A stretch of DNA of 64,000 bases from Sweltsa coloradensis (Eukaryota > Arthropoda > Insecta > Plecoptera > Chloroperlidae), in assembly GCA_024449915.1 (NCBI GenBank), contig JAMZAV010001269.1, positions 434,001 through 498,000 on the forward strand, given 5' to 3'. Position 1 is the first letter of the stretch, and every line of letters starts with the position of its first letter. The position numbers and the translations under genes are program-made. Under the pieces are notes generated by a model, which did not search any database, was not told the origin of the DNA, and was given only the letters and a program-made list of their open reading frames with translations. Shown one piece after another: positions 267 to 63,484 of the stretch.

Positions 267-631
267 TTTATTTGGATTAAGGACGCGTCAACCGTTAGGT
301 CAGAATGCGCCACTCTAGCCTATAAGGGGGGTGGGGAGGAGGGGTCCATGCTGGTCAGAACCAGCCACGGGTAAGGGGAGGAAGGGGGGTTTCTCACGTC
401 GTGGTCGTCATCGTCTTTGTCATCGTTCTTTGAGTCATTGTCATCGTCGCCGGGGGGTCGTCAAGGGAAGGGGGCAAGGTCCCCGACGACGATTGCCAGA
501 GCTCGCCTCTAGTTTCGGGGAGTAAAAAAGATACTCTGCTCGAGTTAGCTGATGTTTGCGAGGTGGACTTTTTCTCTTGAATCGCCTTTTACGATTAGCA
601 GAGCCATGCTCTGGGCCGGGCCCAGATGGGG
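267..631 (-). mobile_element. Repeat A copy, nearly complete
   Basis: Carries every A landmark in order: TTTATTTGGATTAAGG, GTCAACCGTTAGGTCA, the GCTGGT/ACCAGC hairpin, the GTC-rich middle, AATCG/CGATT, AGAGC/GCTCT and a right end CCCAGATGGG. It lacks the usual AATTCTACCCC loop near the right end. The minus strand is taken as sense because complete copies have T-rich left ends and flanking duplications. Confidence 0.85.
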
Positions 632-645
632 CAAGCATCTACAGA

Positions 646-725
646 AAACAACGCCGTGAGAAACTAGGGCGCTTCAACCGAGTTGGATATATTGCGCTGA
701 CTGTGATATTGTAAGTTAATTGATT
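646..725 (-). mobile_element. Repeat B, short copy
   Basis: Shows GTGAGAAACTAGGGCGC, CTTCAACCG and CTGTGATATTGTAAGTT. It lies 15 bp right of an A copy. Only the part nearest the (GAC)n end is present, as expected of a 5'-truncated minus-sense retroposon. Confidence 0.75.
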
Positions 726-837
726 TTGATTTTAAATTATTATAAAAAAGTTTAATATTTTTTTAAAATTTAGTTACAGCTTTTTGAAGGAAAATGATTA
801 AGATGATAGTGATTATGCAAATAATATTTTGTGATGC

Positions 838-1192
838 ACGCTTTGGTTAAGTTTGGTATATTTGGGTTACGATCGTGTCAGTTAGGTCTTAATGCACTAC
901 TGTGGCCTAAGAGATGTAGGAAACAAAGACCCATGCTAATCAGAAGCTGCCACGGGCAGGAGGAGTCAAAAGTTTTTTTTTTATTTAGGGCGCGTCAACC
1001 GCTAGGTCATAATACGCCACTCTAGCCTAGCAGATGTTGGTAGTTCCCGACGACCGCCAGACCTCGCCTCTAGTTTCTGAGAGTAAAATACTTGCTTAAA
1101 TACTAGTTGATACTTGTAAGGTGGATTTTATCTCAATCCTCGTATTTTAAGATTTGCAGAACCATGCTCTGAGTCAAACTCTATACGGGGTC
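838..1192 (-). mobile_element. Two degenerate Repeat A fragments
   Basis: The first (about 838-970) has a decayed core and a CCATGCTAATCAGAAGC version of the first hairpin. The second (about 983-1192) has a good core, then jumps to CCCGACGACCGCCAGA, so the GTC-rich middle is deleted. It ends near CATGCTCTGAGTC. Both are older than typical copies. Confidence 0.65.
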
Positions 1193-1223
1193 GTATGTAT
1201 GTTGTTGGTTATGAGGTTTAAGG

Positions 1224-1380
1224 GCGCGTCAACCGTTAGGTCATATTGCGCCTCCTGCGATATTGAAGTTTATTATAGTTAGTTAATGACAATATATATT
1301 TTTCAAAGGGGTGGAACGTAAGGGGTGACATGGGGGACGCGGGGTGGACAGGTCTGTGCTGGTCATAACCTGCCACAAGC
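1224..1380 (-). mobile_element. Repeat C copy 1, A/B mosaic
   Basis: Starts with the shared core and CTGCGATATTGAAGTT as in B. It continues through GGAACGTAAGGGGTGAC into GTGCTGGTCATAACC, an A-like first hairpin, and CCACAAGC. Two other forward copies begin near 33353 and 57534. Confidence 0.7.
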
Positions 1381-1389
1381 TTTTGTTTT

Positions 1390-1530
1390 GGTTTATTTGG
1401 ATTAAGGACGCGTCAATCGTTAGGTCATAATGCACCACTCTAGCCTAGGGGATATGGGGAGGAGGAGCCCTTGCTGGTCAGAACCAGCCACAGGTATAAG
1501 AGGAGGAATGGGGTTCTCACGTCGCGCAGG
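1390..1530 (-). mobile_element. Repeat A, right-truncated
   Basis: Intact T-rich left end and core, ending just after TTCTCACGTCGCG. The right part is missing, which equals 5' truncation of a minus-sense retroposon. Confidence 0.75.
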
Positions 1531-2187
1531 GGGTTAGGTGGTGTCACGGGGATTGGTTGCTGGCTGGTGTTTAATGAATTTATACTTTTCACCACCTACA
1601 ACTAATTAAATCTCCATGGTCAAATCAATTCTGCAGCTGAGAGCCCATGCACTGAAGTATCATCAGTGATTTCAGCATCTCACAGACTTTAGTATGCAAC
1701 ACGAGAAGATGTGCAACACAACTAAACGAAAGTTAACCTACTGATGCGGCCGAGCGATCTGAATCCCGTTCTATAGGAACCGTCCGTGATTCCCACATTA
1801 CGTGTACCGCATTGAAATTAGCGAAGTGAAATTAGCAACTTTCTGTACGTGTTGGTTGTATCTAGGATAAAAACAAGATGGGCGTGCTGAGATGGTTCGA
1901 TTCCCGGGGAGGTGAGTGCATGGCATACTTCGCGTATTTACACTGCAGCTTCGTTGTAATTAAGTCTAGCTGTCTGTCTTTGTGTGCTTCGTTGAGATGC
2001 GCATGGAGAAAGGAAAGAAAATAAAAGTTGGGTCTGTTTGTACAACAATGTAATGTGAATACTCTTAATATGTGAATTATTATTATGAGTTGTTTAGCGA
2101 TATGAAAAATGCAAAACTTGGTCATTTTTCAAGATTCTATATTTTAGAAACCTGTCCAGCGATACGAGCCCTTGTGTAGGTTGGAGG
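1531..2187. other. Unique sequence, no gene seen
   Basis: AT-rich sequence with no recognised repeat, RNA or coding signal. Open frames here are short and without recognisable motifs. Confidence 0.5.
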
Positions 2188-2577
2188 TTTTTTTTTTTTT
2201 TTTTGTTTATTTGGATTAAGGACGCGTCAACCGTTAGGTCATAATGCACCACTCTAACCTAGGGGGGGGGGGGAGGAAGAGGGGCCCATGCTGGTCAGAA
2301 CCAGCCACGGGAAAGGGGAGGAAGGGGGTTTCTCACGTCGCGGTCGTCATTGTCTTTGTCATTGTTCGTGGTGTCATTGTCTTTGTCATCGTCGCCGGGG
2401 GGTCGTCAAGGGAAGGGGGCAAGGTCCCCGGCGACGATTGCCAGAGCTCGCCTCTAGATTCGGGGAGTACTACCCTTCTTGCTAGCTGATGTTTGCAAGG
2501 TGGACTTTTTCTCTTGAATCGCCTTTTACGATTAGCAGAGCCATGCTCTGGGCCAATTCTACCCCGGGCCCAGACGG
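2188..2577 (-). mobile_element. Repeat A, complete, with long T tract
   Basis: A run of 17 T (2188-2204) precedes GTTTATTTGGATTAAGG, the clearest poly(A)-like tail on the minus strand in the window. Core, GTC region, CCCCGGCGACGAT arm and right end GGGCCCAGACGGGGG are all present. Confidence 0.88.
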
Positions 2578-2693
2578 GGGTAATAGTTTGGGGGTATGTT
2601 AAAATAATCTATATTTCACATAAAGTTTTCGATTCTTTTTTTATAAAGGGCGCGTCAACACTATTTTGCGTAGTGTTTTGGTATATTTGGTTT

Positions 2694-3079
2694 CAGGGTG
2701 ATTTTGGTTTATTTGGATTAAGGACGCGTCAACCGTTAGGTCATAATGCACCACTCTAGCCTAAGGGGGGGAGGGAAGAGGAGGAGCCCATGCTGGTCAG
2801 AACCAGCCACGGGTAAGGGGAGGAAGGGGGGTTTCTCACGTCGCGGTCGTCATCGTCTTTGTCATCGTTTGTTGTGTCATCGTCATCGTCGCCGGGGGGT
2901 CGTCAAGGGAAGGGGGCAAGGTCCCCGACGACGATTGCCAGAGCTCGCCTCTAGTTTGGGGGAGTAAGATACTCCGCTCTTACTAGCTGATGTTTGCGAG
3001 GTGGACTTTTTCTCTTGAATCGCCTTTTACGATTAGCAGAGCCATGCTCTGGGCCAATTCTACCCCGGACCCAGACGGA
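2694..3079 (-). mobile_element. Repeat A, complete
   Basis: Full order of landmarks with a right end GGACCCAGACGG. A stub of the core alone (about 2640-2670) lies just to its left. No clear flanking duplication seen. Confidence 0.87.
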
Positions 3080-3216: not shown

Positions 3217-3756
3217 AGGTTAATTTGGTTTTATCGTAAGATAAACAGTTTGGGGGTTTGAATTTCCAGAATTTTAATCCATGTTTTGTATTTCCCATTT
3301 TTTCAAGTATTGGACTTGTCTCGCAATGGATCTTTAAGGCTTATTTTGCGCGCGCGCGCATTTGAGTTTGGCCAAGCTCTGAGTGAGATATCCGTAAGTG
3401 GCCTTTTCGAATAGGTATCGAGCAAAACTCTACAGTGTAACAATTTCGAGTTTAGTGTCTCTAGCTAAAGCTCAGTCAAATTTCACTTCTAATAAATAAT
3501 ATAAGTTTGTTAGTGCTGTCATGTAATCAGTTAATTGGTCTTAAAATATCTAATTACATTCTGGAGTCTAAATGTCAAGGTACGTAAGCTCGAGAAAAAT
3601 GTCGCTTCATCGACTGATTTCGCCCCAAACCTAGCTCTGAACTCGATAGAGTCTTCTTGTAAGGAATGATCACAAGTTTCACTGCTTGGAAAATACCAGG
3701 AGGAAAAGTCGAACAATCAAAGATGACTCTCCATTACTACGTAAGCCGCTATTGAT
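3217..3756. other. Unique sequence, no gene seen
   Basis: AT-rich, with a short (CG)n run near 3349. No motif or repeat recognised. Confidence 0.45.
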
Positions 3757-4228
3757 GACGACGTGAGAAACTAGGGCGCTTCAACCGGTTAGGTCATATT
3801 GCGCCGCCTGTGATATTGAAAGTTGATGAGATGAGTTAATGGTGTGTTTGATGATTAGATTGTTTTCTAATAGTGTATATTATATTATAACAAAATAAAT
3901 TGGTGATGATAATAGTAAAAGCAAAACAAAAGTTATTTATGTGAATGAACATAAATAAATTAAAGAAATGTGTATGATGTGAATTAAATGTTGTTAAATA
4001 GATTATTTTGGACGAGAAATGTAAAAAGTTTATCGCCGTTATCATATGATTGAAGTTCTTTATAATCATATGATTGGAAGAAATTATTTATTTTTATGAA
4101 TTTTACCTGCCCACAGGGCAGGAAGGTTTATGCAGGGCAATTGCGTGCACAAGGCATCATAATTTTATTTGGTACATTCTGCTAGCATATGATGTGTCAC
4201 ATGTGGGAATAACCTTTTCTCTGGTTAA
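3757..4228 (-). mobile_element. Repeat B, long copy
   Basis: Begins GACGACGTGAGAAACTAGGG, then the core GGTTAGGTCATATTGCGCC. It continues through the AT-rich body with ATCATATGATTGAAG and CATATGAT hairpin arms, and ends near AATAACCTTTTCTCTGG. It carries an extra piece around ACCTGCCCACAGGGCAGG not seen in other copies. Confidence 0.82.
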
Positions 4229-4733: not shown

Positions 4734-4734
4734 A

Positions 4735-9770: not shown

Positions 9771-10006
9771 TGCTAGCGATATCCGTGAGCTAGACGTGTG
9801 AGGCCTATTCGAATTCTGGACAATTCCACCTCTTCTCTACGTGGGAGTCGAGACGTAGGTGGACGAATTTTATTAGTCAGTGTGGGCATCACACTACGCA
9901 ATTTGTTATTTTGCCACCACATCCCAAGATGCTTGTCGCAAATCCAACAATCGTTGCTTGAATCCACTCTTGCCACCTCGAACGGGAACAAAAATTACGA
10001 CTTACG
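9771..10006 (-). mobile_element. Repeat B distal (5') segment
   Basis: Matches the far end of the long B copy at 27773-27990: ATATCCGTGAG, AATTCTGGACAAT, GAGTCGAGACGTAGGTGG, TTATTAGTCAG and GCAAATCCAACAATCG. It is followed directly by the (GAC)n end of the next B copy, giving a head-to-tail junction. Confidence 0.75.
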
Positions 10007-10520
10007 ACGACGTCAGAAATTAGATCGCTTCAACCGGTGTTTTGGTTTATTTGGATTAAGGACGCGTCAACCGTTAGGTCATAATGCACCACTCTAGCCT
10101 AAGGGGGGGGAGGAGGAGGGGTCCATGCTGGTCAGAACCAGCCACGGGTAAGGGGAGGAATGGGGGTTTCACGTCGCGGTCGTCATCGTCTTTGTCATCG
10201 TTCGTTGTGTCATTGTCATCGTCGCCGGGGGGTCGTCAAGGGAAGGGGGCAAGGTCCCCGACGACGATTGCCAGAGCTCGCCTCTAGTTTCGGGGAGTAA
10301 GATATTCTGCTCTTTCTAGCTGATGTTTGCGAGGTGGACTTTTTCTCTTGAATCGCCTTTTACGATTAGCAGAGCCATGCTCTGGGCCAATTCTACCCCG
10401 GGCCCAGACGGGGACACTTCAACCGGGTAGGTCATACTACGCTGTCTGTGACATTGTAAGTTAGTTCATTGTATTTTATTTTTGTGTTTGTTTATGTTTT
10501 TCTAAGATTATATAAAATAA
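10007..10520 (-). mobile_element. Repeat B interrupted by Repeat A
   Basis: Left part 10007-10037 ends in CTTCAACCGG. Right part resumes at 10417 with CTTCAACCGG and continues GGTCATACTACGCTG into CTGTGACATTGTAAGTTAG. The A copy between them sits inside the B core. Confidence 0.85.
10038..10416 (-). mobile_element. Repeat A, complete, with target-site duplication
   Basis: All A landmarks present, left end TGTTTTGGTTTATTTGG. It is flanked by CTTCAACCGG at 10028-10037 and 10417-10426, an exact 10-bp duplication of B core sequence. This shows that A is a discrete inserting unit. Confidence 0.93.
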
Positions 10521-10621
10521 AATCAATGATACAAAATAAATTAATATTGAATGGCACTTCTCACCCGTTATCTGTTCTATTTACACTTGTATACATAATA
10601 AATAAAATGTTCGCCACTTAC

Positions 10622-11214
10622 CTCATGTATTTCCTATGTTCGTTAACCGGCACAAAGTACTCATCGTAGGGATCGTGATAGTTTCCGGACGCCCCCTCGT
10701 CCCCATTCTCCTTCTTTATAGGGATCCCGTTAGTTCCATCCTTCTCCCCCGCCTTGTAGGGGCTCATGTTCACTAGTTCCAGGTTCACAGCCTCTGCCGC
10801 AGGTTTGTCCTTGACCACGTCACTTCCTGCTTCGCTAAGGTTTACCTCCTTCAACATGGAAGTGTCAACCACGGGGGAGTTCAAAAACGCGCCGTTATTA
10901 TAATTACCGTTTTTATTTTTACTAGATTTAGGAGTTTCCTTAATCGATTTCGATTCGTCTTCGTCGACGAAACCCGGGTTGTCTATACCGATTGGTTTTT
11001 CCTCAGTTGCCTTTTCCATAATGTTGGTAGTGCTGTTTCGTTTGTTTTCGTTTTCCTCTACTTTGGCGCTAAGTTTGGGGGAGTTTTCGATGTTTATGTT
11101 GGTGGTTGTGGTGTACTGGGGTGTGCTTGAGGTTGGTAGTGTTGTCTCGATAGACGCAGTGGTGCCACTACTGTCGCCACTGGATGAAGACATGTTTTCT
11201 TCGTTGGCTTCCAT
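10622..11214 (-). CDS. N-terminal coding exon of an unidentified protein
   Basis: Minus-strand open frame of 197 whole codons plus two bases. The start ATG (A at 11214) sits in a good context, ACAATGG. The exon ends ATGAG before GTAAGT (10621-10616), a strong donor. The peptide (starts MEANEENMSSSSG, ends PVNEHRKYM) is rich in Ser, Thr, Asn, Glu and Lys, has no Cys or Trp and no membrane segment, and looks disordered. It could be the cytoplasmic N-tail of a membrane protein, but that is a guess; I do not recognise the family. Later exons are not recognisable in the window. Repeats lie within 210 bp on both sides. Confidence 0.72.
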
Positions 11215-11304
11215 TGTAGCCAAGATGACGGACTTGGGGACTTAGGCGAAGAAGTAGGTGTTCATTGGTTGATGGTGGCTGTCATTGGCCAATCACCGAC
11301 ATCT
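11215..11304 (-). other. 5' untranslated part of the exon with 3' splice acceptor
   Basis: On the minus strand a T-rich tract ending TTTTTAG (AG at 11304-11303) is a good acceptor, so an upstream non-coding exon is likely. The exon then opens with a six-codon upstream frame (ATG at 11302, stop TGA) before the main ATG. This could lower translation of the main frame; that is inference. Confidence 0.55.
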
Positions 11305-12050: not shown

Positions 12051-12422
12051 ACAGGTATTACACCGGCCCCCACCCAGACTGGGGGAGTGTACGAGTGGGA
12101 GAATGACGCTTCCGAGAGGGAAAGTGATGGGTGAACTCAGAGCCAGGTCGTGACGTTATAGAGCGCGTTGCTCTTCTTCGTGCCAGCTCGTCTTCGAGTA
12201 TGTCGAGATCGTGCGCCTGGTATGGCGGGGTGAGTTGACACCACACATGGGAGATGAATGCCTGGGAGGGAGGACGTCTAGTTTCAACCTTCAGGTTATT
12301 ATGCGCCACACAACAAGAACGACGTGAGAAACTAGGGCGCTTCAACCGGTTAGGTCATACTGCGCCGCCTGTGATATTGAAAGTTGATGGTATGAGTTAA
12401 TGGTGTGTTTGATGATTATAAT

Positions 12423-14290: not shown

Positions 14291-14472
14291 AGTCAAAGGA
14301 AGGGGGCAAGGTCCCCGACGACGATTGCCAGAGCTCGCCCCTATTTTCGGGGAGTAAAATACTACCCTTTATTCTAGCTGATATTTGCGAGGTGATTTCT
14401 TTCTCTTGAATCGCCTTTTACGATTAGCAGAGCCATGCTCTGGGCCGATTCTACCCCGGGCCCAGACGGGGG
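14291..14472 (-). mobile_element. Repeat A right half, tandem to the previous copy
   Basis: Begins inside the unit at GTCAAAGGAAGGGGGCAAGG and runs to GGGCCCAGACGGGGG. There is no T-rich left end, so this is a partial tandem duplication or template-switch product, not an independent insertion. Confidence 0.8.
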
Positions 14473-15057: not shown

Positions 15058-15175
15058 GAAGACGACGTGAGAAACTAGGGCGCTTCAACCGATTAGGTCA
15101 TACTGCGCCGTCTGTGATATTGAAAGTTTATGAGATGAGTTAATGGTGTGTTTGATGATTAGATTGTTTTCAATG
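15058..15175 (-). mobile_element. Repeat B, short copy
   Basis: GACGACGTGAGAAACTAGGG, the core, then TTAATGGTGTGTTTGATGATTAG. It breaks off into (AAAT)n. Confidence 0.8.
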
Positions 15176-15237
15176 AATAAATAAATAAATAAAATGCATT
15201 CCTATTTAGAGTCTGCCAACCCTGTAGGGCCGGAACC
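15176..15237 (-). mobile_element. Repeat E fragment (copy 3)
   Basis: (AAAT)n tail, then ATGCATTCCTATTTAGAGTC and AACCCTGTAGGGCCGGAACC as in the other E copies, with a deletion between. It joins the next B copy through a shared GACGACGACG stretch. Confidence 0.65.
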
Positions 15238-15355
15238 GTCGACGACGACGAGAGAAACTAGGGCGCTTCAACCGGTTAGGTCACACTGCGCCGTCTGTGA
15301 TATTGAAAGTTTATGAGATGAGTTCATGGTGTGTTTGATAGTTAGATTGTTTCCA
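15238..15355 (-). mobile_element. Repeat B, short copy
   Basis: Near duplicate of 15058-15175 (GAGAAACTAGGGCGC, CTGTGATATTGAAAGTTTA), also ending in (AAAT)n. The pair suggests a local 180-bp duplication. Confidence 0.8.
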
Positions 15356-15690
15356 ATAAATAAATAAATAAATAAATATATAAACAAATAAATAAATAAA
15401 TAAATAAATCAAATACATTCGTTTTTAAGAGTCTTCCCATGCACTCAGTCACAGAACTGATTTTCAGTGGGGGGGATATAAAAATTTAAAGACGGCCAAG
15501 CCAACTCTGTAGGTCCGGAACCATCGACGAGCGAATGACCAACTAGAGATCGGCGTATTTAAGTTGGAAACACCGATCAACGAAGCTGGACACGATTATA
15601 CAGCATTGGACAGAGCCAGAATCAACAAAACTAATTCGGAACAACCGTAGAATGTATTATGTGACTCGTTGCTAGGACGGCTCCAAAATC
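15356..15690 (-). mobile_element. Repeat E, SINE-like, copy 1, head missing
   Basis: (AAAT)n tail at the low-coordinate side, then GAACTGATTTTCAGTGGGGG, AGCCAACTCTGTAG, GATCGGCGTATTT, AGAATCAACAA and GTTGCTAGGACGGCTCC. It matches 55283-55545. The tRNA-like head seen in the other copy is absent because an A fragment starts here. Confidence 0.75.
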
Positions 15691-15828: not shown

Positions 15829-16196
15829 TTTTTTTTGGTTTATTTGGATTAAACGCGTAACCGTTAGGTCTAAGCCCCACTCTACCTAAGGGGGGGGGGG
15901 GAGGGGGGGCCCATGCTGGTAGAACCAGCCACGGGAAAGGGGAGGGGGGGGGTTTTCCGTCGCGTCGTCATCGTCTTTGTCACTTTCGTTGTGTCTTTGT
16001 CATGCGCCGGGGGGTCTAAAGGGAAGGGGACAATGCCCCCGGACGACGATTGCCAGAGCTCCCCTCTATTTGGGGAGTAAGAATCCGCTTTTTCTAGCTG
16101 ATTTTTTGCGAGGTGGACTTTTTCTCTTGAATCCCCTTTTACGAAAAGCAGAGCCATGCTCGGGGCCCAATTCTCCCCCGGGCCCAGAGGGGGACG
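15829..16196 (-). mobile_element. Repeat A with many small deletions
   Basis: Full span, but single bases are missing throughout: AAACGCGTAACC in the core, GCTGGTAGAACC in the first hairpin, GTCATGCGCC in the middle. Either sequence decay or poor consensus quality. Confidence 0.8.
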
Positions 16197-16880: not shown

Positions 16881-16892
16881 GGGTTTTGGTTT

Positions 16893-17222
16893 TTTTTAAT
16901 TAAGACGCGCAACCGTTAGGTATAAAGCCCACTTTATTTTCAGGGGATTTTGGGGGGGAGGGGCCCATTTGTCGAACCAGCCCCGGGGTGGGGAGGAAAG
17001 GGGGGGTTTTCACGTCGCGGTTTTCATTTGTCTTTGTCACGTTGTTTTTGTCATTGTCGTCAAGGGAAAGGGGGAGGGGTCCCCGACATGATTTCCAGAG
17101 CTCGCTCTAGTTTTGGGGAGTTATACTCGCTCTTTTGGATTTTGCGAGGTGGTGTTTCTCTCGAACGCCTTTTTCGATTAGCAGAGCCCCGGTGGGCCAT
17201 TTTCTCCGGGCCCGACGGGGGG
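16893..17222 (-). mobile_element. Repeat A, eroded by deletions
   Basis: Order of landmarks kept from AATTAAGACGCGC to GGGCCCGACGGG, again with many one- to three-base losses. Confidence 0.7.
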
Positions 17223-18517: not shown

Positions 18518-18903
18518 TTTTCGGGTTTATTTGGATTAAGGACGCGTCAACCGTTAGGTCATCATGCACCACTCTAACCTAGGGCAGGGGGGATGAGGAG
18601 GGGTCCATGCTGGTCAGAACCAGCCACGGGTAAGGGGAGGAAAGGGGGTTCTCACGTCGCGGCCGTCATTGTCTTCGTCATCGTTCGTGGTGTCATTGTC
18701 GTCATCGTAGTCGAGGGGTCGTCAAGGGAAGCGGGCAAGGTCCCCGGCGACCATTGCCCTAGCTCGCCTCTAGATTCGGGGAGTAATATATACTACCCTT
18801 CAAACTACCTGATGTTTTCGAGGTGGACTTTTTCTCTTGAATCGCCTTTTACGATTAGCAGAGCCATGCTCTGGGCCAGTTCTACCCCGGGCCCAGACGG
18901 GGG
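18518..18903 (-). mobile_element. Repeat A, complete
   Basis: All landmarks; right end GGGCCCAGACGGGGG. The main hairpin arms differ from consensus (CCCCGGCGACCAT), useful for covariation tests. Confidence 0.87.
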
Positions 18904-43767: not shown

Positions 43768-43837
43768 AGTTAATGGTGTGTTGATGATTATATTGTTTTC
43801 TAACTGTATATCTAAGACAATAAAAAGATTTTTTTGT

Positions 43838-44219
43838 TGGTTTATTTGGATTAAGGACGCGTCAACCGTTAGGTCATGATGCACCACTCTAGCCTAAGGG
43901 GGAGGGGGGAGGAGGGGGCCCATGCTGGTCAGAACCAGCCGCGGGTAAGGGGAGGAAGGGAGGTTTCTCATGTTGCGGTCGTCATCGTCTTTGTCATTGT
44001 TCTTTGTGTCATTGTCTTCGTCGTCAGAGAGGTCGTTAAGGGAAGGGGGAGGTATACCCGACGACGATTGACAGAGCTCGCCTCTAGTTTCGGAGATAAA
44101 TATTATAATCCCCTCTTACTAGCTGATGTTTGCGAGGTGGACTTTTTCTCTTGAATCGCTTTTTTACGATTAGTAGAGCCATGCTCTGGGCCAAATTCTA
44201 CCCCGGGCCCAGACGGGAT
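43838..44219 (-). mobile_element. Repeat A, complete, inside Repeat B
   Basis: T7 left end. Flanks AATAAAAAGA and ATAAAGAAAAG are an imperfect duplication of A-rich B sequence. Right end GGGCCCAGACGGG. Confidence 0.88.
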
Positions 44220-45784: not shown

Positions 45785-46165
45785 TTTTTGGTTTATTTGG
45801 ATTAAGGACGCGTCAACCGTTAGGTCATAATGCACCACTCTAACCTAGGGGGGGGAGGGGGAGGAGCCCATGCTGGTCAGAACCAGCCACGGGTAAGGGG
45901 AGGAAGGGGAGTTTCTCACGTCGCGGTCGTCATCGTCTTTGTCATCGTTCGTTGTGTCATTGTCATCGTCGCCAGGGGGTCGTCAAGGGAAGGGGCCAAG
46001 GTCCCCGACGACGATTGCCAGAGCTCGCCTCTAGTTTCGGGGAGTAATATTACACCCTTATTACTAGCTGATGTTAGCGAGGTGGACTTTTTCTCTTGAA
46101 TCGCCTTTTACGATTAGCAGAGCCATGCTCTGGGCCAAATTCTACCCCGAGCCCAGACGGGGGGA
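45785..46165 (-). mobile_element. Repeat A, complete, with duplication
   Basis: ATTGCGAAGGA (45774-45784) and ATTGTGAAGGA (46166-46176) differ at one base; T-rich sequence follows the left one. All hairpins present. Confidence 0.9.
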
Positions 46166-46667: not shown

Positions 46668-46945
46668 ACGACGACGTGAGAAACTATAGGGCGTTTCTAC
46701 CGGTTACGTCACATTGCGCCGTCTGTGATATCGAAAGTTTTTATGAAATGAGTTTATGGTGTGTTCGATGATTATTATTGTTTTCTGAGTTTTTAAAATT
46801 TAAAAAAAATGAAGTTCATAATAGCAAAAAAAATATTAATTTGAAGAAAAAAAGTTATGTGATTGTAGTGAATTAAATTACGCAACAGAAAGATAATTTG
46901 GATAAGAAATATAGAAAGTTTGTCGCCGTTATCATATGATATTAA
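46668..46945 (-). mobile_element. Repeat B, long copy
   Basis: ACGACGACGTGAGAAACTATAGGGC to GTTTGTCGCCGTTATCATATGAT. Confidence 0.8.
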
Positions 46946-47370: not shown

Positions 47371-47720
47371 CAGAAATCAGAATCGTAATATGATGACTGT
47401 GGTGATTCTTGGAGTAATTTTCATTCAGGATTTCAACTTGGCATCAATCAAACTTCCTTTCACTTATTGTGTCAACTCGAGTGCGTAATACGTACGCATG
47501 CGTTTTCTGAGAAGAAATTTAATGAAATTAAATCAATGATAAGTTAAATGAATGCCTATCAAACCACGTTAGCTTTCTACTTGTTCTGTAACGATTTCTT
47601 GGTACTCTTGAACCGGAAAACCATGCTGTACCACTACCAGTATGTCGGTAGCAAGATAGAGCTTCATTTATGTTGTGTTTGAATCCGACAAATTATTTGC
47701 GTTCTTCGAGCTTTTTTTTG
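47371..47720. other. Unique sequence
   Basis: No gene or recognised repeat seen. Confidence 0.4.
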
Positions 47721-48052
47721 TGGTTTATTTGGATTAAAGACGCGTCAACCGTTAGATCATAATGCACCACTCTTACTAGGGGAGGGGGGGGGGGGGGAGG
47801 AGGGGCCCATGCTGGTCAGAACCAGCCACTGGTAAGGGGAGGAAAGGGGGGTTCTCACGTCGCGGTCGTCATCGTCTTTGTCATCGTTTGTTGTGTCATT
47901 GTCATCGTCGCCGGGGGGTCGTCAAGGGAAGGGGACAAGGTCTCCGACGACGATTCCCAGAGCTCGCCTCTAGTTTCGGGGAGTAAGATACTCCGCTCTT
48001 ACTAGCTGATGTTTGCGAGATGGACTTTTTCTCTTGAATCGCTTTGTACGAT
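47721..48052 (-). mobile_element. Repeat A, slightly right-truncated
   Basis: Complete through GAATCGCTTTGTACGATT, then ends; last two hairpins missing. Confidence 0.86.
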
Positions 48053-48149
48053 TAAAAAAATACTATATATTGTTATATATTTTTTGTTAACCGTGACTTT
48101 GGAGTCGTTCTCCTAGCAACGAAGTCTATATATAAACCGAATTGTATTA

Positions 48150-48540
48150 TACGACGTGAGAATCTAGGGCGCTTCAACCGGTTGGGTAACAACGCCTGTG
48201 ATATTGAAATTAAATCAAATGAGTTTATGGTGTGTTGATGATTATATTGTGTTCTAAGTTTATATAAAAGAAAATAAAGTGATGGAATGGTGATAGTAAA
48301 GCAAAAGAAAAAAATATTTTTTGAATAAAAAATGAAATGTGTTTGCTGTGATTTAAAAAAATTGAACTAAGGGCACGTCAACCGTTAGGTCATATTGCGC
48401 TACTCTAGCCTATAGGGAATATGGGGGAGGGACACATGCTGGCCAGAACCAGAATAAATAACTTTGAATGAAAACTGTTGAAAGTTCGTCTTCGTGGTCA
48501 TGATAAAAGTTTGCGTGCGCAAGGCAACATAAAATACCAT
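48150..48540 (-). mobile_element. Repeat B interrupted by a Repeat A stub
   Basis: B 48150-48362 and 48454-48540 (AATAAATAACTTTGAATG, GCGTGCGCAAGGCAAC). The A stub 48365-48453 stops inside the first hairpin at CTGGCCAGAACCAG. Confidence 0.78.
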
Positions 48541-49984: not shown

Positions 49985-50702
49985 TAAAAATTTAAAAATA
50001 TAAAATCGACACCGAGTTATGTCGCCGAAAACCATTTCAATGTTGATTGTCAGTTGTTAACAATGTACTTTGATTTAAAATACTGACAACTTTCAACGAA
50101 GTTACACATAAATCATATACGATCCATGGCTGCTGGAAATTTATTACTAAATCCCAAATGTAAATGACACTTTATAAACAAACAACGCCATCAATTAATT
50201 CTCCGAGTGTGCAAGCCAGCGGCACGTACGTGTCTCGTATCACTTCGAAACTGAAAGTGGGCTCATTAGAAATCAGTCTGATTTCCGTCACATTATTCCG
50301 AGCGCGCAGACAGTGTTTTGTTTCTCGCGCGCGTCCAACTGGTTCGGTTTCTAGCGGGCCTTGGCTTCGACCCAGCACCGTCGTCCTTTCAACGGGAGAA
50401 AGTGAATTTGTCGCCGTGTCGATCTGAAAATAGACATATTCCCGCGAGTAGGAAATGACTGCGGGTATGGGCGCGAGTTTGCTGCCGGGTAATAAGCCGT
50501 TACAGGCAACGAGCCGCGTACGGTAATAAACAATCCAATGACAGCTCCTTAGAGGAAGTTTTATTAGGCTACTTTAGTCAATTATATGACTTTCTATTTG
50601 GTGTTGATTTTGTATTGTTGTATGATCGTCATAGCATTAATATACTGTGTCACGAATTAATTTGTTGTTTAAACACTTTCTGAATTAATTTTAATACATT
50701 TG
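49985..50702. other. Unique sequence, unsupported open frames
   Basis: An 87-codon frame at 50164-50427 overlaps a comparable antisense frame and has no motif, start context or splice signals to support it. Slightly higher GC than its neighbours. Confidence 0.4.
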
Positions 50703-51082
50703 TTAAGGACTCGTCAACCGTTAGGTCATAATGCACCACTCTAACCTAGGGGTGGGGGGAGAGAGAGGGAGAGAGGAGTGGTCCATGCTGGTCAGAACCA
50801 GCCACGGGTTATGGGAGGAACGCTTTGTGGCCATCATCGTCTGTGTCTTCGTTCATCTTGTCATGGTTTTCGTCGTCGTCGCCATCGTCGGGGAGGTCGT
50901 CAAGGGAAGAGGGAGTAGTTCCCGACGACGAATGCCGTAGCTCGCGTCTAGTTTGGGAAAGAAATATACTTCTCTATTTAGGCACAGCTGATGTCTGTGT
51001 GATGTGCTTTATCTCTTTCCTCGCCTTTAACTATTAGCATAGCCATATTCTTGGCCAAATTCTAACTCGGGCCCAGAAGGTG
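50703..51082 (-). mobile_element. Repeat A, older, full span
   Basis: GTCAACCGTTAGGTCA to GGGCCCAGAAGGTGGG. The unusual right end AGAAGG replaces AGACGG. Confidence 0.8.
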
Positions 51083-51449
51083 GGTTTTAGTTTATTTGGA
51101 TTAAGGTCGCGTCAACCGTTAGGTCATAATGCACCACTCTAGCCTAAGGAGGAGGGCCCATGCTGGTCAGAACCAGACACGGGTAAGGGGAGGAACGGGG
51201 GTTTCTCACGTCGCGGTCGTCATCGTCTTTGTCATCGTTCGTTGTGTCATTGTCATCGTCGCCGGGGGGTCGTCAATGGAAGGGGCAAGGTCCCTGACGA
51301 CGATTGCCAGAGCTCGCCTCTAGTTTTCGGGGATAAGATACTCGACTCTTTCTAGCTGATGTTTGCGAGGTGGACTTTTTCTCTTGAATCGCCTTTTACG
51401 ATCAGCAGAGCCATGCTCTGGGCCTATTCTACCCGGGCCCAGAAGGTGG
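51083..51449 (-). mobile_element. Repeat A inserted at the end of another Repeat A
   Basis: Its right side reads GGGCCCAGAAGGTGGGG, the same rare variant as the preceding copy. This is best explained as a 16-bp duplication of the older copy's end. Confidence 0.82.
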
Positions 51450-52054: not shown

Positions 52055-52586
52055 AAAACACGTGAGAAACTATGGCGCTTTAACACGTTAGGTCATATTG
52101 TTTTACAAGTTTATATGAAAAAAAATGATGTTGATAGTAAAAGCAATTTTTTATTTTTATTTAAATGTGAGGAACTAAATAAAGGAAATGTTTATAATGT
52201 GAATAACATTTTGTTAGGTACTTTTGTTCATTTGGATTAAGGGCGCTTCAACCGTTAGGTCATAATGCACCACTCTAGCCTAGGAGATATGGGGAGGAGG
52301 GGCCCATTGCTGGTCAGAACCAGTTACCGGTTGCGGGAGGAAAGGGGGGTTCTCAAATCGCGGTCGTCATCGTCTTTGTCAACGTTCGTTGTGTCATTGT
52401 CGTCATCAAGGGGAGGGGAGAGTTCCCCGATGACGACCGCCAAATCTCGCCTTTAATTTCGGATATTAATTTAATTCCCTTCTTACTAGCTGATGTTTGC
52501 GAGATGGACTTTTTTCTCTTCAATCGCCTTTTACGATTAGCAGAGCCATGCTCTGGGCCAAATTCTACCCCGGGCCCAACGGGATC
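52055..52586 (-). mobile_element. Repeat B then Repeat A
   Basis: B 52055-52215 with a deleted core (TTAACACGTTAGGTCATATTG). A 52228-52586 is full span with GGGCGCTTCAACCG, a B-like core arm, and ends GGGCCCAACGGG. Confidence 0.78.
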
Positions 52587-53202: not shown

Positions 53203-53790
53203 TACGACGACCTGAGAAACTAGGGCGCTTCAACCGGTTAGGTCATATTGCGCCGCCTGCGATATTGTAAGTTAATTACATGAGTTAGTGGTGTGTTTGA
53301 TGATTATATTGTTTTTTAAGTATTTAAACGGAAAGAAAATGATGGAGATTGGTTTATTTGGATTAAGGACGCGTCAACCGTTACGTCATAATGCACCACT
53401 CTAGCCTAAGGGGGGTGGGGTGGAGGGGCCCATGCTGCATGGTCAGAACCAGCCACGGGTAAGGGGGGAAGGAGGGTTTCTCACGTCGTGGTCGTCATCG
53501 TCTTTGTCATCGTTCGTTGTGTCATTGTCATCGTCGTCGGGAAGTCGTGAAGGGAAGGGGGCAAGGTTCCCGACGACGATTGCCACGGCTCGCCTCTAGT
53601 TTCAAGGACTAATTAACTCCTCTCTCTCTAGCTGATGCTTGCAAGGTGGACTAATTCTCTTGAATCGCCTTGTACAATTAGCAGAGCCATGCTCTGGGCC
53701 AATTCTACCCCGGGCCCAGACGGGGGAAAATTGATGGAGATGATAGTAATAGCGAAAGAAAAAAATATTTGAATTTAGTTTTAGTTTCTT
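53203..53790 (-). mobile_element. Repeat B interrupted by Repeat A
   Basis: B reads through AAAGAAAATGATGGAGAT, is interrupted, and resumes GATGGAGATGATAGTAATAG. Confidence 0.84.
53350..53726 (-). mobile_element. Repeat A, complete, with 14-15-bp duplication
   Basis: AAAATGATGGAGAT (53336-53349) and AAAATTGATGGAGAT (53727-53741) differ by one base. Confidence 0.92.
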
Positions 53791-53834: not shown

Positions 53835-54446
53835 TGGACGCATCAATCTTTAGGTCATAATCCTGTGTAGGTCAGAACCAGCTACGGATATGGGGAGAAT
53901 TTGGTTTATTTGGATTAAGGACGCGTCAACCGTTAGGTCATAATGCACCACTCTAGCCTAAAGTGGGGGGGGTGGGGAGAGGAGGGGCCCATGCTGGTCA
54001 GAACCAGCCACGGGTAAGGGGAGGAAGGGGGGGTTTCTCACGTCGCGTTCGTCATCGTCTTTGTCATCGTTCATTGTGTCATTGTCATCGTCGCCGGAAG
54101 TTCGTCAAGGAAAGGGGGCAAGGTCCCCGACGACGATTGCCAGAGCTCGCCTCTAGCGATTGCCAGAGCTCGCCTCTAGTTTCGGGGAGTAAGATACTCC
54201 GCTCTTTGTAGCTGATGTTTGCGAGGTGGACTTTTTCTCTTGAATCGCCTTTTACGATTAGCAGAGCCATGCTCTGGGCCAATCGTCATCGTCTTTGTCA
54301 AGGGAAGAGGGAGAGGTCTCCGAGCTCGTCTCTAGTTTCCTACTTATACCAGCTGATGTTTGCTAGATGGACTCTGTCTCTTTCATAGCATTTTGCGATT
54401 ACAGAGCCGTGCTCTGGGCCAAATACAACCCCTGGCCCAGACGGCG
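53835..54446 (-). mobile_element. Repeat A stub, full Repeat A with internal duplication, and a right half
   Basis: 53835-53900 is a stub. 53904-54284 is complete except its last hairpin and carries an internal tandem duplication of CGATTGCCAGAGCTCGCC (about 54133-54180). 54285-54446 is a decayed right half starting CGTCATCGTCTTTGTC. Confidence 0.78.
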
Positions 54447-54794: not shown

Positions 54795-55137
54795 AATGAC
54801 CGTAGAGCATTATCAACTCTAGCCTAAGGGGGGTGGGGAGGAGGAGCCCATGCTGGTCAGAACCAGCCACGGGTTAGGGGAGGAAGGGGGGTTTCTCACG
54901 TCGCGGTCGTCATCGTCTTTTTCATCGTTCGTTGTGTCATTGTCATCGTCGCCGGTGGGTCGTCAAGGGAAGGGGGCAAGGTCCCCGACGACGATTGCCA
55001 GAGCTCGCCTCTAGTTTCGGGAGTTAGATACTCCGCTCTTACTATAGCTGATGTTTGCGAGGTGGACTTTTTCTCTTGAATCGCCTTTTACGATTAGCAG
55101 AGCCATGCTCTGGGCCAATTCTACCCCGGGCCGAGAC
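54795..55137 (-). mobile_element. Repeat A with decayed left end
   Basis: Left part reads GTTAAATGACCGTAGAGCATTATC where the core should be; the rest is near consensus, ending GGGCCGAGACAG. TAGTGGT occurs on both sides. Confidence 0.82.
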
Positions 55138-55685: not shown

Positions 55686-55727
55686 ATGTGAATTGACATA
55701 GGCCCTTTTCCCGCCCCCGCCGTGTTT

Positions 55728-56098
55728 TGGTTTATTTGAATTAAAGACGCGTCAACCGTTTGGTCATAATGCACCACTCTAGTATTTGGGGGGGAGGGGG
55801 TGCAGGGACCCATGCTGGTCAGAACCAGCCACGAGTAAGGGTGGAAGGGGGGTTTCTCACGTCGCGGTCGTCATTGTCTTTGTCATTGTTCGTGGTGTCA
55901 TTGTCTTTGGCATCGTCGCCGGGGGGTCGTCACGGGAAGGGGGCAGGTCCCCGACGACGATTGCTATAGAGCTTGCCTCTAATTTCGGGGAGTAATACAA
56001 TCTAGTACTCCCGTTCTTCTAACTGATGTTTGCAAGGTGGACTTTTTTTCTTGAATCGCCTTGTGATCTGGGCCAAATTCTACCACGTTCCCAGACGG
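55728..56098 (-). mobile_element. Repeat A, nearly complete
   Basis: Core GTCAACCGTTTGGTCA; the AATCG/CGATT and AGAGC/GCTCT hairpins are deleted (CGCCTTGTGATCTGGGCC). Right end TTCCCAGACGG. Confidence 0.82.
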
Positions 56099-57364: not shown

Positions 57365-57475
57365 TCTCGCAGGCCCTTCTCTCGTTCCGCCATGTGTCTG
57401 GTTCTGACCAGCACAGGCCTGAATCCTCTTGTTTTCCCGAGTTTCTCCATACGCCCCTATATAAATGAGTGTTGG
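57365..57475 (+). mobile_element. Repeat C-like fragment in reverse orientation
   Basis: GGTTCTGACCAGCACAGGCC is the reverse complement of the C hairpin block, with GAGTTTCTCC following. It is the only clear A/B/C-type copy found in the opposite orientation. Sequence similar to its left end also occurs at 55680-55727. Confidence 0.65.
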
Positions 57476-57795: not shown

Positions 57796-58293
57796 AGTTT
57801 AGTCTTTACAGTTACACACTGTCTTGTAAGGTAATGTTTCCATATCACTCAGTAACTATTTTACTCATTTCCGATTTCTATAATCCTGTTCTTTCATGGT
57901 AGTTCTGGTAAGACGTGACTCAGGGATGACGTCATTTCAAATAAAAGTAAACGGCCACGTTTTAATTTATTACACGGCCCTTCTCCTTCTCCCGGCGGAG
58001 ATCTCAACGAGCGGTCGGCAGCTAACACAGCCTAGCCCACCGGCCGGCAGTTCCTAGAACCAGACCGCGTCACACATTCTTGCAGTCGTCGTCTTCTCAA
58101 GCATATCCTGTGGTCCGGAGAAGATGATTCGCAGCTTCATCTCGTCCCCTTTGTTTGCGGTCGGGGAGCCGACAGGTCCGGTCTTTTCAACAATGTCATG
58201 GTTGAAAGAAGAACTATTAGGACAAATCCAAGGTTTTTATGCCTTTCACAAAGCTAACATTGGCATTTGACATCTGAGTCTGGAGTGCATTCG
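57796..58293. other. Unique sequence
   Basis: GC-richer than its surroundings near 57970-58200. No coding motif recognised. Confidence 0.4.
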
Positions 58294-58400
58294 ACGACGA
58301 CGTGAGGAACTAGGGCGCTTCAACCGGTTAGGCCATATTGCACGGCCTGTGATACTGAAAGTTGATGGTGTTTGATGATTAGATTGTTTTCTAAACAATG
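58294..58400 (-). mobile_element. Repeat B
   Basis: CGACGACGACGTGAGGAACTAGG, core, GTGATACTGAAAGTTGATGG. Confidence 0.78.
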
Positions 58401-59774: not shown

Positions 59775-60352
59775 GTAGGCGTGAGAAACTAGGGCGCTTC
59801 AACCGTGTAGCCACCTGTGTTATGTAAGTTAGTAAATTTAGTTTGTTGTATTTGATTTTAAATAAGTTTATTTGGATGAAGGGCTCATCAACCATTTGGA
59901 CCTAACGGTTAGGTCATAGTACGCCACTGTAGCCTAGGAGATGTGGAGATTGTCGGTTTATTTTCGGTTTATTTGGATTAAGGGCGCGTTATCCGTTAAA
60001 TCATAATGCACCACTCTGGCCTAGCCATTCTCTGGCCCATGCTGGTCAGAACCAGCCACGGATAGGTGGAGGAAAGGGGGTTTCTCACGTCGTGGTCGTC
60101 ATTGTCTTTTCAGCGTTCGTGTTGTCATAGTCGTCATCGTCGTCGTTGACGTCGTCGTCTTCGTCGTCGGGAGGTCATCAAGGGAAGATGGAGAGGTCCC
60201 CGACGACGACCGCCGAAGCTCGTCAATAATTTCGGTAAATAATGCTTCCATATACACACTAGCTTTAGTTTGTGAGGACTATCTCTCTCCTCACATTTTA
60301 CGATAAGCAGAGCCATGCAACAAATTCTACCCCGGGCCCATGCAGACAGGGG
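59775..60352 (-). mobile_element. Repeat B stub, A stub, and full Repeat A
   Basis: B 59775-59850 (GGCGTGAGAAACTAGGGCGC). A stub near 59870-59945. A 59958-60352 full span with an enlarged GTC tract, ending GGGCCCATGCAGACAGGGG. Confidence 0.72.
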
Positions 60353-60549: not shown

Positions 60550-61340
60550 AAGACGAGAGAAACAAGGGCGCTTCAACCAATTAGGTTTTATTTCGGCGCC
60601 TGTGATATTGCAAAGTTAATAAAATGAGTTTGTCGTGCGTTTGATGATTATTGTTTTCTAAGTTTATAAAGGGAAAGCAATTAATAGAGATGGCATTGAA
60701 TGGTGTGAAATTGATTTTTTTCTCTCCATAAAATGTGTTTGATTTGTATTTCTTTGAATGAGGAACTTAGAAGTTTGACGTCGTTATCTTTTTGTTTATT
60801 TGGATTAAGGACGCGTCAACCGTTAGGTCATAATGCACCACTCTAACCTGGGGGGGGGGGGGAGGAGGGACCCATGCTGGTCAGAACCAGCCACAGGGAA
60901 GGGGAGGAAGGGGGGTTTCTCACGTCGCGGTCGTCATTGTCTTTGTCATCGTTCGTGGTGTCATTATCATCGTCGTCGGGGAGGTCGTCAAGGGAAGGGG
61001 GCAAGGCCCCCGACGACGATTGCCAGAGCTCGCCTCTAGTTCCGGGGAGTAAATATATTTCGCTGTTATGCTAGCTGATGTTTTCGAGGTGGACTTTTTC
61101 TTTTGAATCGCCTTTTACGAGCAGCAGAGCCATGCTCTGAGCCAAATGGTAGAAGTTCTTCATATGATTAGAGATAGATCAAATTGCGTGCGCAAGACAT
61201 CATATGTCAATGTGTTACATTTTGATAACATATGATGTAGGTACGGTTAAAGGTTCATCACATGTGTCGCTCGTGTGTGGATACATTAACCACTGCACAA
61301 TGTGTGTTGGAATAACCTTTTCTCTTGTTAGGAGATTCTA
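60550..61340 (-). mobile_element. Repeat B, long, interrupted by Repeat A
   Basis: B reads to GACGTCGTTATC (60796) and resumes at 61147 with GGTAGAAGTTCTTCATATGATTAG, continuing to CCTTTTCTCTTGTTAGGAG. Confidence 0.84.
60797..61146 (-). mobile_element. Repeat A, slightly right-truncated, inside Repeat B
   Basis: T5 left end; complete to CATGCTCTGAGCC. The last hairpin is absent, as expected of 5' truncation in the minus sense. Confidence 0.88.
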
Positions 61341-61576
61341 TAAGTAACTGATGGCGTACAATGTAATTATTTATAATCGTTGAAGTTTTGGTCAATAAGT
61401 TATTGATCGTGCGTTTTTGAATAAACAATTCGTTCACGTTCGGGGCTTTGATTTTAAAGAATTTGACCACAAGTGTAATATATTAGCGTCAGTTCGTTTT
61501 TAAATTTAATTTAACAATAATAATTATTGTGGGAAGCCTGCCCAAGGTGCAATTATACACACATATCACACAAGAC

Positions 61577-61890
61577 CAGCACGACGACGTGAGAAACTAA
61601 GGCGCTTCAACCGGTTAGGTCATTGCGCCGCCTGTAACATTGTAAACTAAGATAATGAGTTTGTTTTGTGTTTGATGTTTATATTGTTTCCTAATTTTAT
61701 AAAATAAAATAGATGATATTGATAGCACAGAGTTATTTAGGGTTAAGAGTGCGTCAACCGTAAGGTCTTGATGCATTACTTTAGCCTAGTGGATACGAGG
61801 AGGAAAGCCTCATGCTGGTCAACTCATGTTTTTTTGGATTCATCAAGTTTAAGGGCTCGTCAACCGTTAGGTCATAGTAATGCGCAACTT
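61577..61890 (-). mobile_element. Repeat B and two Repeat A stubs
   Basis: B 61577-61735 (GCACGACGACGTGAGAAAC). A stubs 61742-61825 and 61850-61890 hold cores AGTGCGTCAACCGTAAGG and GGCTCGTCAACCGTTAGG only. Confidence 0.7.
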
Positions 61891-62659
61891 CATTACAATT
61901 TTCTCCTAACATTGTTCATTTAATTCAACACACATGAAAATTTACCACACATCACTTTGACACGCTGATGTGGTTAATGTCATGTTGTGACATTAAAGAA
62001 TATTGATCTATGGATTGAGTTATGTCCTTACTTCGCGGTTTCAAAGGTTCTTCGATCTTCACAGTCAATGATCTGACCTGACTTTGCTTTCAGGTCAGGT
62101 GAATGCACGAAGTACATGCTGAACTCTCAAGACGTCTGCATCGAAAATTGCAACATTTGCATCGGAATTTGGGTCGCTTTGTAAAAACCCATGCAAACTC
62201 AACATATTCCTGCGAAGTTGTAACAACTATTTTTACGACCAGTTGTCATGCGTTCTGTTATTTTTATGAAAGTAGCATCTGATTCATGGGCATCTTAACA
62301 CACTGCAGTTCTCAGAACTTGGCTACAGGTTGCATTCTCTAAGAAATTAGAAGAGATGTATGCAATGGCCGGTGACGGCATTCGCATAGTTTGTATATAG
62401 TATAATATACCCGGAACAAATCTTATAGCTCAAATGTTTAAACTTTTAATTACTTTCTTGAATGAGTCACAGTTGTCCACGTTGGTTCATACGGTAGCGG
62501 ATCACTATCAGTCAAATGTCATTAAACACGTTGAAGACGACTGAATAGTCGTCGAAATATTGTTACATAGTTTTCTTTATTTACAAGAGCAGTGTATAGT
62601 CCAAATAATTCATTACATTATTAACCTCACCGGCTCTAAAAGTTTCCTTATTATATTAA
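61891..62659. other. Unique sequence with one hairpin
   Basis: No gene seen. GACGACT-GAAT-AGTCGTC (about 62535-62552) flanked by TTGAA and GAAAT is a short perfect hairpin. Confidence 0.45.
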
Positions 62660-62715
62660 GGTCATAGCAAATGGTACTAACATCCAGACACGGGTTCGAA
62701 TCCCGTATGTGGCAT
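62660..62715 (+). tRNA. 3' half of a tRNA-like sequence
   Basis: Perfect T arm ACGGG-TTCGAAT-CCCGT with a B box. No convincing A box or acceptor stem, so probably a fragment of a tRNA-derived repeat. Confidence 0.4.
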
Positions 62716-62919
62716 GGGTCATTTGCAATTGTAATTCACCCTCAATATCACCACTCATTGTCACGGATGGCAATTTTATAATAATATATAAAGGCTTCCG
62801 CTTATTTCTCGCTTTAGATAGTCGGAAAATATTATTATAGAGAAGTTAAGCAAAAATTAATAATTTAATGTTCTTCGTTTTAGTTTGTTTAAGTTTTAGT
62901 TTAAAAAAAATATTGGATT

Positions 62920-63130
62920 AAGTACGCGTCAACCGTTAGGTCATAATGCAGCACATGTTGTTGTTAACATGGTGATTATGAAGACGTGAGAAACTAGGGC
63001 GCTTCAACCGGGTATATTAATTACGCCTCTAAAACTTCGAAATTATTGTAACTTGTTTGTTTGTGTTTTAATTATACTATTTCTTAAGATATACAATAAA
63101 ACGATAGTTATAATAATATGAAAATTAATT
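62920..63130 (-). mobile_element. Repeat A stub and Repeat B
   Basis: A core stub (GTACGCGTCAACCGTTAGG) then B from GACGTGAGAAACTAGGGCGC with a shortened core. Confidence 0.65.
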
Positions 63131-63189
63131 TATAATATTAACATCAAAATTAATATAACTTTTATAACTTTTAAATGTCTCGCTACCCG

Positions 63190-63300
63190 TTGATGACATT
63201 TTTTTATTTATCGGGTTGTTTCGTATCGGCGCTAGTGATATCTTTCTGTCGACGTTTCGAAGACCTTGTTGTCTTCTTCTTCAGGACTTAATGTCATCAA
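63190..63300 (-). repeat. Inverted-repeat hairpin with hammerhead-like core
   Basis: TTGATGACATT and AATGTCATCAA form an 11-bp inverted repeat 89 bases apart. Inside, the minus strand reads CTGAAGA, a GAAGAC/GTCTTC stem, then CGAAAC. This resembles part of a hammerhead core but lacks a clear cleavage site. Confidence 0.5.
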
Positions 63301-63364
63301 AATTAATGTTTGTAATGTGACAATTCTAATGAGTAATTTAGAAAGTTTATCGACAATATCGTTT

Positions 63365-63484
63365 GGATCACTCGTTAGGTCATAATCACTCTAGCCTAAA
63401 AATGTGGGGAGGAAAGTCTCATGCTGGTCAGAACCAGCCACGGGCAGGAGGAGACAAATTCTTCCCCAGGCCAAGACGTTGGGG
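63365..63484 (-). mobile_element. Repeat A fragment
   Basis: TCGTTAGGTCATAATC, hairpin GCTGGTCAGAACCAGC, then jumps to CCCCAGGCCAAGACG. Confidence 0.65.

Follow-up and report, generated by a model that had tools for sequence, protein, structure and literature searches.

Copies of a SINE-like element and of a LINE 3′ end point almost all one way within chromosomal domains of Sweltsa coloradensis

In the genome of Sweltsa coloradensis (Plecoptera, Chloroperlidae), two repeat families, a short interspersed element (SINE)-like sequence, A, and the 3′ end of a long interspersed element (LINE), B, pile up in chromosomal domains, two of which hold gene exons, and the copies inside a domain, old and recent, nearly all point one way. 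On the best reading of the data, each domain, about 0.2–0.6 Mb in size, has a stable direction of its own, the two best sampled ones measuring 0.24 and 0.6 Mb. The stretch under analysis (the window) comprises 64,000 nucleotides, positions 434,001–498,000 of contig JAMZAV010001269.1 (C1269) in the 1.449-Gb assembly GCA_024449915.1. Profiles of A and B were built from the window copies, both strands were searched at E ≤ 1e-3, and overlapping matches were removed.

In this profile search the window yields 97 matches to A and 56 to B, of which 73 and 47, respectively, include the 3′ end; all are plus and none is minus, and together the two families cover 29,258 bases (46% of the window). Self-alignment of the window gives 2757 same-strand versus 3 inverted pairs, none of the latter lying in A or B copies. 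A preliminary description of the window had counted over 50 A segments, which is too low although the uniform direction stands, and about 45 B segments, which is about right. Its placement of the tails on the low-coordinate side holds for both A (a T-run) and B ((GAC)n), and the many reverse copies that it had named as counter-evidence did not appear in the sensitive search. As for the single exception that it gave, a reversed A/C-like piece at 57365–57475 is visible by eye, but it stays below the E ≤ 1e-3 threshold of the A and B profiles. A LINE 3′ end had also been placed on the low side; the LINE with a Pfam-recognised reverse transcriptase, however, is plus, with its 3′ end on the high side, opposite to A and B.

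A is about 380 bp long (376-position consensus) with an A-rich 3′ tail, and under a strict rule 28 of 91 near-full-length copies have target duplications of 7–17 bp, mostly 9–14 bp; its shortness, tail, and duplications are those of a SINE. The A insertions are separate events marked by target duplications, as had been proposed, but the 181-bp piece at 14291–14472 is a tandem duplication rather than an insertion, and it is not seen in the apparent other haplotype introduced below. Of an RNA polymerase III promoter or a tRNA-related head, A shows box-A/B-like motifs by eye only, and ARAGORN found no tRNA in it; ARAGORN and Rfam scans of the whole window returned no tRNA or RNA family. B has the form of a 5′-truncated LINE 3′ end, with a common low end ((GTC)n in RNA sense) and a variable high end. 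One B 5′ end, which makes the element 665 bp long, recurs: the copy at 27369 of the window has it, as do five loci. In that window copy (27369–28033) the high end opens, in RNA sense, with two perfect palindromes, GGAAGCTTCC and CAGCGTCGCGACGCTG.

Read in the RNA sense of B, its 5′ half codes for the C-terminus of a LINE open reading frame (ORF), whose best database match (95% identity) lies on a 1048-bp contig. A second database fragment carries RNase H (PF00075), again on a 1048-bp contig and probably the same one; the two fragments are 95–96% identical to the ORF of B. No reverse transcriptase belonging to this LINE was found. A and B have a common core of about 30 nucleotides near the 3′ end (A profile positions 20–53 match the B cores) and differ over the last 25 or so. 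The common core fits the expectation for a SINE and its helper LINE, though the last bases differ; judging from sequence, A and B would form a retrotransposon pair, in which A carries the 3′-proximal core of B and is probably mobilised by it. No match to the core was found in IMG/VR. Copies span <5% to >30% divergence.

With 30 kb added on each side of the window, the resulting 124 kb contain 146 A and 92 B 3′ ends, all in one orientation. For independent copies, 238 of 238 has a chance probability of 4.5e-72, and chance is rejected as the cause. Two of the 307 deduplicated matches in these 124 kb are reversed, both being short pieces of A, one with 80 aligned bases and one with 32. The cluster spans at least 388 to 624 kb of C1269, with outermost matches at 388.3 and 624.6 kb; of six 1.5-kb stretches taken near its edges, four contain A or B, always plus, and neither family occurs in the other two, at 618 and 631 kb. 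Sparse sampling in 3-kb stretches points to a clustered distribution: on C1269, 5 of the 18 sampled stretches contain A or B, each time plus, versus 0 of 20 on contig C87, on which one A copy is nevertheless known.

As far as tested, the one-way rule is family-specific. Repeats of other kinds within these 124 kb give 54 pairs in direct and 16 in inverted orientation, 2 of the 16 being palindromes, and the Jockey-like LINE runs opposite to A and B. Many of the direct pairs fall in a duplicated stretch at 404–415 kb (L031–L032), where local direct duplications of non-A/B sequence reach 100% identity over 148 bp. Copying of a single block, which the preliminary description had judged insufficient, as it had independent retroposition, is rejected as the source of the pattern, the non-A/B spacers of the 124 kb giving these 70 pairs, and so is tandem duplication as the main source, for which one 181-bp case is shown, along with tandem-looking runs on contigs C172 and C485.

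Among the places listed, one-way clusters are found elsewhere in the genome as well, an outcome that the preliminary description had named as support for a mechanism. Leaving the reference copy aside, 25 of the 29 best A copies (L002–L030, with about 1.5 kb of flank on each side) have A or B neighbours, which are all co-oriented at 22 loci and all opposite at three (L011, L021, and L027). Neighbour matches number 114 same and 6 opposite, and independent loci, L015 excluded, 21 versus 3 (p = 0.0003). An exact 26-base core of A occurs 4641 times forward and 5325 times in reverse (9966 matches; 0 for a reversed-pattern control), and two variant-core patterns have 173 and 499 matches. Genome-wide positions refer to the first 100 matches of each pattern, those of the exact core lying on contigs C2–C41, and the counts that follow are among these listed matches.

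Two exact-core clusters are uniform, with 17 of 17 minus on C4 and 13 of 13 plus on C39. The 70 exact-core copies outside clusters comprise 38 plus and 32 minus; their neighbours <5 kb apart are 5 same and 1 opposite, and those at ≥5 kb 20 same and 20 opposite. Since copies outside clusters are random, the one-way rule needs a cluster. Variant-core pairs within 200 kb on the same contig are 165 same and 0 opposite, although these pairs are statistically dependent on one another and some of them look like products of local tandem duplication. Farther apart, the numbers of same and opposite pairs are 20 and 2 (200–400 kb), 10 and 3 (400–700 kb), and 1 and 2 (>700 kb). Of 13 contigs with at least three variant-core places, 12 are uniform, and the remaining one, C109, has five minus places and one plus 660 kb away. 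C277 holds nine minus places over 609 kb, with 5 of 5 extra samples between them all minus; on C734, between plus places, one sample (at 220 kb) has no copies and another (at 270 kb) has plus copies. Uniform groups of at least three copies occur on at least 16 contigs. On C172 (1042–1056 kb), seven variant-core copies lie at multiples of about 1 kb, possibly as a tandem expansion of an A-bearing unit.

Individual insertions show the same direction. All 11 A copies that have target duplications and sit inside another A or B are on the same strand as their host. Locus L015 matches the window at about 12.1–15.4 kb (330 bp at 100%, 606 bp at 98.5%, and 1077 bp at 95.5% identity) and is read as the apparent other haplotype of this region; it carries a co-oriented A insertion, flanked by GTATGT, that is absent from the window at 13693. 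Regarding age, among matches with at least 60 aligned bases in the 124 kb, none of the 22 with less than 5% divergence is reversed, and 1 of the 248 more diverged ones is. The strand appears to be chosen at insertion, and this choice appears to be inherited in cis with the domain.

The mechanism that we tentatively favour as the most likely one is a self-reinforcing polarity set at insertion. A chance excess of copies in one direction would found the polarity of a domain; the existing copies might then act through directional transcription, R-loops, or a nicked strand exposed to the same LINE machinery, and could bias the site and strand of the next insertions of the family. In this way the founder direction would become fixed over hundreds of kilobases, and purging of inverted newcomers may sharpen it. 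In a more general form, which we put forward more hesitantly still, the LINE/SINE pair would pass polarity on in cis, copies or their domain dictating the strand of later insertions in domains reaching 0.6 Mb or more. Insertions of widely differing age would then inherit the direction of a founder, as in a self-organised, strand-specific target memory independent of genes and motif.

Several observations weigh against self-reinforcement. The distances of A insertions to the nearest shared core are as random (Kolmogorov–Smirnov p = 0.62, n = 46), so that targeting to the core is rejected and the recombination process at the core suggested in the preliminary description is unsupported; likewise, 11 of 28 insertions are nested, roughly the proportion expected from 46% coverage, which gives no signal of local targeting. 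Some same-direction neighbours look like local tandem duplicates (on C172, C485, and at 404–415 kb of C1269). In the union of 340 listed places there are 427 same and 21 opposite pairs within 200 kb, and among 145 adjacent pairs no more than 250 kb apart, 15 are opposite; at least one exact-core copy takes part in 13 of these 15, and the other two are a case on contig C552 and the known inverted copy L021. Mixed clusters, which had also been named as counter-evidence, were not found among the places listed, but the young copies of L011, L021, and L027 oppose their neighbours. Exceptions are more common among young (3/46) than among older copies (1/249 before overlap removal, 1/248 after; p = 0.013), the two sets being drawn from different loci, which hints at purging rather than pure insertion bias. 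Finally, polymorphism is shown for one insertion only, and copies counted as young may already have met selection.

Coupling to replication and purging after insertion are the close rivals of self-reinforcement in cis. Under the former, LINE machinery would prime on the strand exposed by a fork moving in one direction, the domains being long origin-poor zones; we regard this as possible but unlikely. Such coupling would suit a domain scale of 0.24 to at least 0.6 Mb that is stable over all divergence classes, the irrelevance of host-gene strand in the two domains seen, and the lack of a strong target motif by eye. It sits poorly, however, with the window spacers, which have no strand skew (GC skew 0.009, AT skew −0.021), with the listed outside-cluster neighbours 5–100 kb apart (6 same, 7 opposite), and with the weaker bias of other repeats and the opposite Jockey-like LINE. 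Replication-linked integration and strand-specific target choice, both proposed in the preliminary description, may still play a part, though spacers without skew and random outside-cluster copies speak against them. Strand composition of the host DNA as the cause is rejected on the same skews; one of six flank stretches, L031, has a spacer GC skew of 0.157 and lies in the locally duplicated region.

Purging after insertion, which we also consider unlikely, supposes that copies insert at random and that, in a dense array, hairpin-driven deletion or the harm done by double-stranded RNA removes inverted ones until the majority direction prevails. Random copies outside clusters beside uniform ones inside and the excess of young exceptions agree with it, as does the depletion of inverted Alu pairs in humans (PMC3215922). 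The human effect is small, however: the inverted:direct ratio of adjacent Alu copies is 0.82, or 0.955 after CLIQUE correction (PMC3215922), versus near 0 here, where 2 short fragments among the 307 matches of the 124 kb are reversed and a single direction can persist for as much as 609 kb. In both cases SINE neighbours more often share a direction, and nested insertion into tails may carry direction along (PMC3215922). Recent copies, moreover, are already 21 versus 3, and 22 versus 0 in C1269, and purging leaves the clustering unexplained.

It is improbable that the domains are unistrand PIWI-interacting RNA (piRNA) clusters, which would be transcribed one way and keep copies that yield silencing RNA, by analogy with flamenco and Gypsy. 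The domains do share with such clusters a large locus and a family-specific, one-strand content of transposable elements. In one study, flam clusters of several Drosophila species measure 227–1085 kb, with a flam-like strand bias confined to one group, Gypsy, and up to 14 large piRNA clusters occur per assembly (PMC10643416). The scale and family-specificity are therefore similar. In contrast, the elements there are Gypsy long terminal repeat (LTR) elements (PMC10643416), whereas here a LINE/SINE pair shows a nearly total bias on at least 16 contigs among the matches listed. A recent insertion is also seen here, and gene exons in two domains stand in opposite relations to the copies.

Co-orientation with a long host gene, by which copies would insert or survive only in sense to a giant gene transcribed in the germline, is very unlikely; proposed in the preliminary description, it fits C1269 and fails on C4 (n = 2). 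Five exon regions of C1269 at 380–445 kb are all minus: an N-terminal exon (444.6–445.2 kb), a membrane-span exon (419.2 kb), a Factor-Xa/EGF-like exon (394 kb, below the Pfam cut-off), LDL-receptor A repeats (389 kb), and trypsin exons (380–382 kb, one of two above the cut-off). They probably make up one type II transmembrane serine protease gene, to which A and B lie in sense direction; among the named homologs of the host exon are Blattella, Cryptotermes, and Timema sequences. A second, partial copy of the membrane-span exon lies beside the main one (L032 5018–5200; 419.02–419.20 kb of C1269). The plus copies, however, extend some 179 kb beyond the first recognised coding exon on its upstream side, to 624.6 kb, a distant promoter being possible. 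On C4, an aminotransferase exon (PF00155, 74.2–74.6 kb) is antisense to the A copies of the one-way domain and is flanked by the last listed core (69.6 kb) and a same-direction A piece (75.2 kb). A simple gene-sense rule is therefore rejected on these two domains. Mouse intronic SINE variants are 41.6% sense (PMC3446317), which is like the present case in that gene-relative direction can be selected, but here uniformity is near-total, in sense in one domain and in antisense in another. The human Alu and mouse SINE biases come nowhere near the present pattern. Pfam searches of 31 open frames gave no match for 20 and some match for 11.

HeT-A and TART form telomeric arrays of LINE copies that all run in one direction over long stretches; arrays of the HeT-A type sit at chromosome ends and grow by end-to-end addition, with no target duplications. 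The present domains resemble them in this respect, but A and B are interspersed with unique DNA and gene exons and have target duplications. A telomeric array of this type is rejected: the C1269 cluster is internal, and no telomere repeat was found in C4:1–1500 or C39:1–1500, contig ends that lie inside clusters. No report of one-way domains of the A/B type was found in literature searches on SINE orientation, clusters, replication, piRNA, telomeres, and islands of transposable elements, most subscription literature being outside the scope.

Table 1. Longer A and B copies (selected from 97 A and 56 B matches) and other features in the window; strand denotes RNA sense, minus placing the 3′ tail at the low end.
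Feature	Position	Strand	Remark
A (SINE-like), near full length	264..630	-	profile match, model 4-375
A, full length, reference copy (2197-2580)	2200..2578	-	98% identical copies elsewhere
A, full length	2702..3078	-	
B (5′-truncated LINE 3′ end)	3754..4064	-	
Jockey-like LINE, PF00078	4691..5908	+	opposite to A/B
B fragment with LINE ORF C-terminus	9775..9991	-	
B split by A at 10040-10412, duplication CTTCAACCGG	10004..10450	-	
A, full length, nested in B core, same orientation	10040..10412	-	
Open frame, first recognised coding exon of probable type II transmembrane serine protease gene, then GAG/GTAAGT	10618..11241	-	
B	12319..12417	-	
A, full length, also in L015	13914..14290	-	
181-bp tandem duplication of A 5′ half, not separate insertion	14291..14472	-	
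B	15058..15190	-	
B	15241..15373	-	
A	15833..16192	-	
A, diverged	16885..17220	-	
A	18523..18902	-	
B	20014..20353	-	
A	20822..21194	-	
B	23357..23602	-	
A, duplication TTGAAAGTT	23981..24346	-	
A	25452..25797	-	
A, duplication ACAGTGGATTCA	26795..27192	-	
B, 665 bp; low end with (GTC)n 3′ tail; LINE ORF C-terminus degraded, minus sense	27369..28033	-	
A, diverged	28178..28512	-	
B, split by A at 29035	28837..29028	-	
A nested in B, duplication AATAAATAAA	29035..29422	-	
B	30026..30311	-	
A, duplication TAGATAAATTCTGA	31536..31884	-	
B	32251..32603	-	
A	32760..33141	-	
A	34991..35335	-	
B	35360..35813	-	
B	36024..36506	-	
A	36671..37020	-	
B	37970..38166	-	
A	38835..39201	-	
A, duplication ATTCAGA	40083..40458	-	
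B	41704..41774	-	
A, directly after B piece 43767-43821	43837..44217	-	
A, duplication ATTGYGAAGGA	45786..46162	-	
B	46668..46941	-	
A	47715..48054	-	
B	48151..48357	-	
A, diverged	50698..51080	-	
A, abuts copy 50698..51080 head to tail	51086..51446	-	
A	52222..52582	-	
B split by A at 53349	53204..53762	-	
A nested in B	53349..53725	-	
A	53900..54283	-	
A	54816..55137	-	
A	55726..56098	-	
Reversed A/C-like piece around CTGGTTCTGACCAG	57365..57475	+	by eye only, below profile threshold
B	58293..58394	-	
A	59963..60340	-	
B	60552..60670	-	
A	60789..61145	-	
B pieces with LINE ORF C-terminus	61143..61336	-	
B	61581..61723	-	

Beside the A and B copies, the window holds a non-autonomous DNA transposon at 12424–13334, with ends CAGGGGCGGC...GCCGCCCCTG, which is inserted in a B copy, is absent from L015, and which we take to be hAT-like. 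A large imperfect palindrome (foldback or miniature inverted-repeat transposable element-like, 79.5% self-complementary) lies at 37371–37758, and a tRNA-related SINE-like head at 40459–40560, with a GGTTCGAATCCC box by eye, abuts an A copy, ARAGORN finding no tRNA in the window. Outside the window, an A copy at L017 (C934, 85.7–89.1 kb) sits in or beside a long open frame that by eye resembles a gypsy-type LTR polyprotein, and an ORF at L004 2590–3057 has a weak GIY-YIG match (E 4e-4, below the cut-off), perhaps from a Penelope-like element.

Target-primed insertion is usually regarded as strand-blind apart from weak biases, of which the human and mouse values are examples. A near-complete, regional, and family-specific rule that does not hold outside the domains would imply either a new layer of control, exerted by chromatin, replication, or a feedback, or else that inverted repeats are selected against very strongly. 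A dated series of insertions is preserved in the domains, which makes the cause directly testable within one species.

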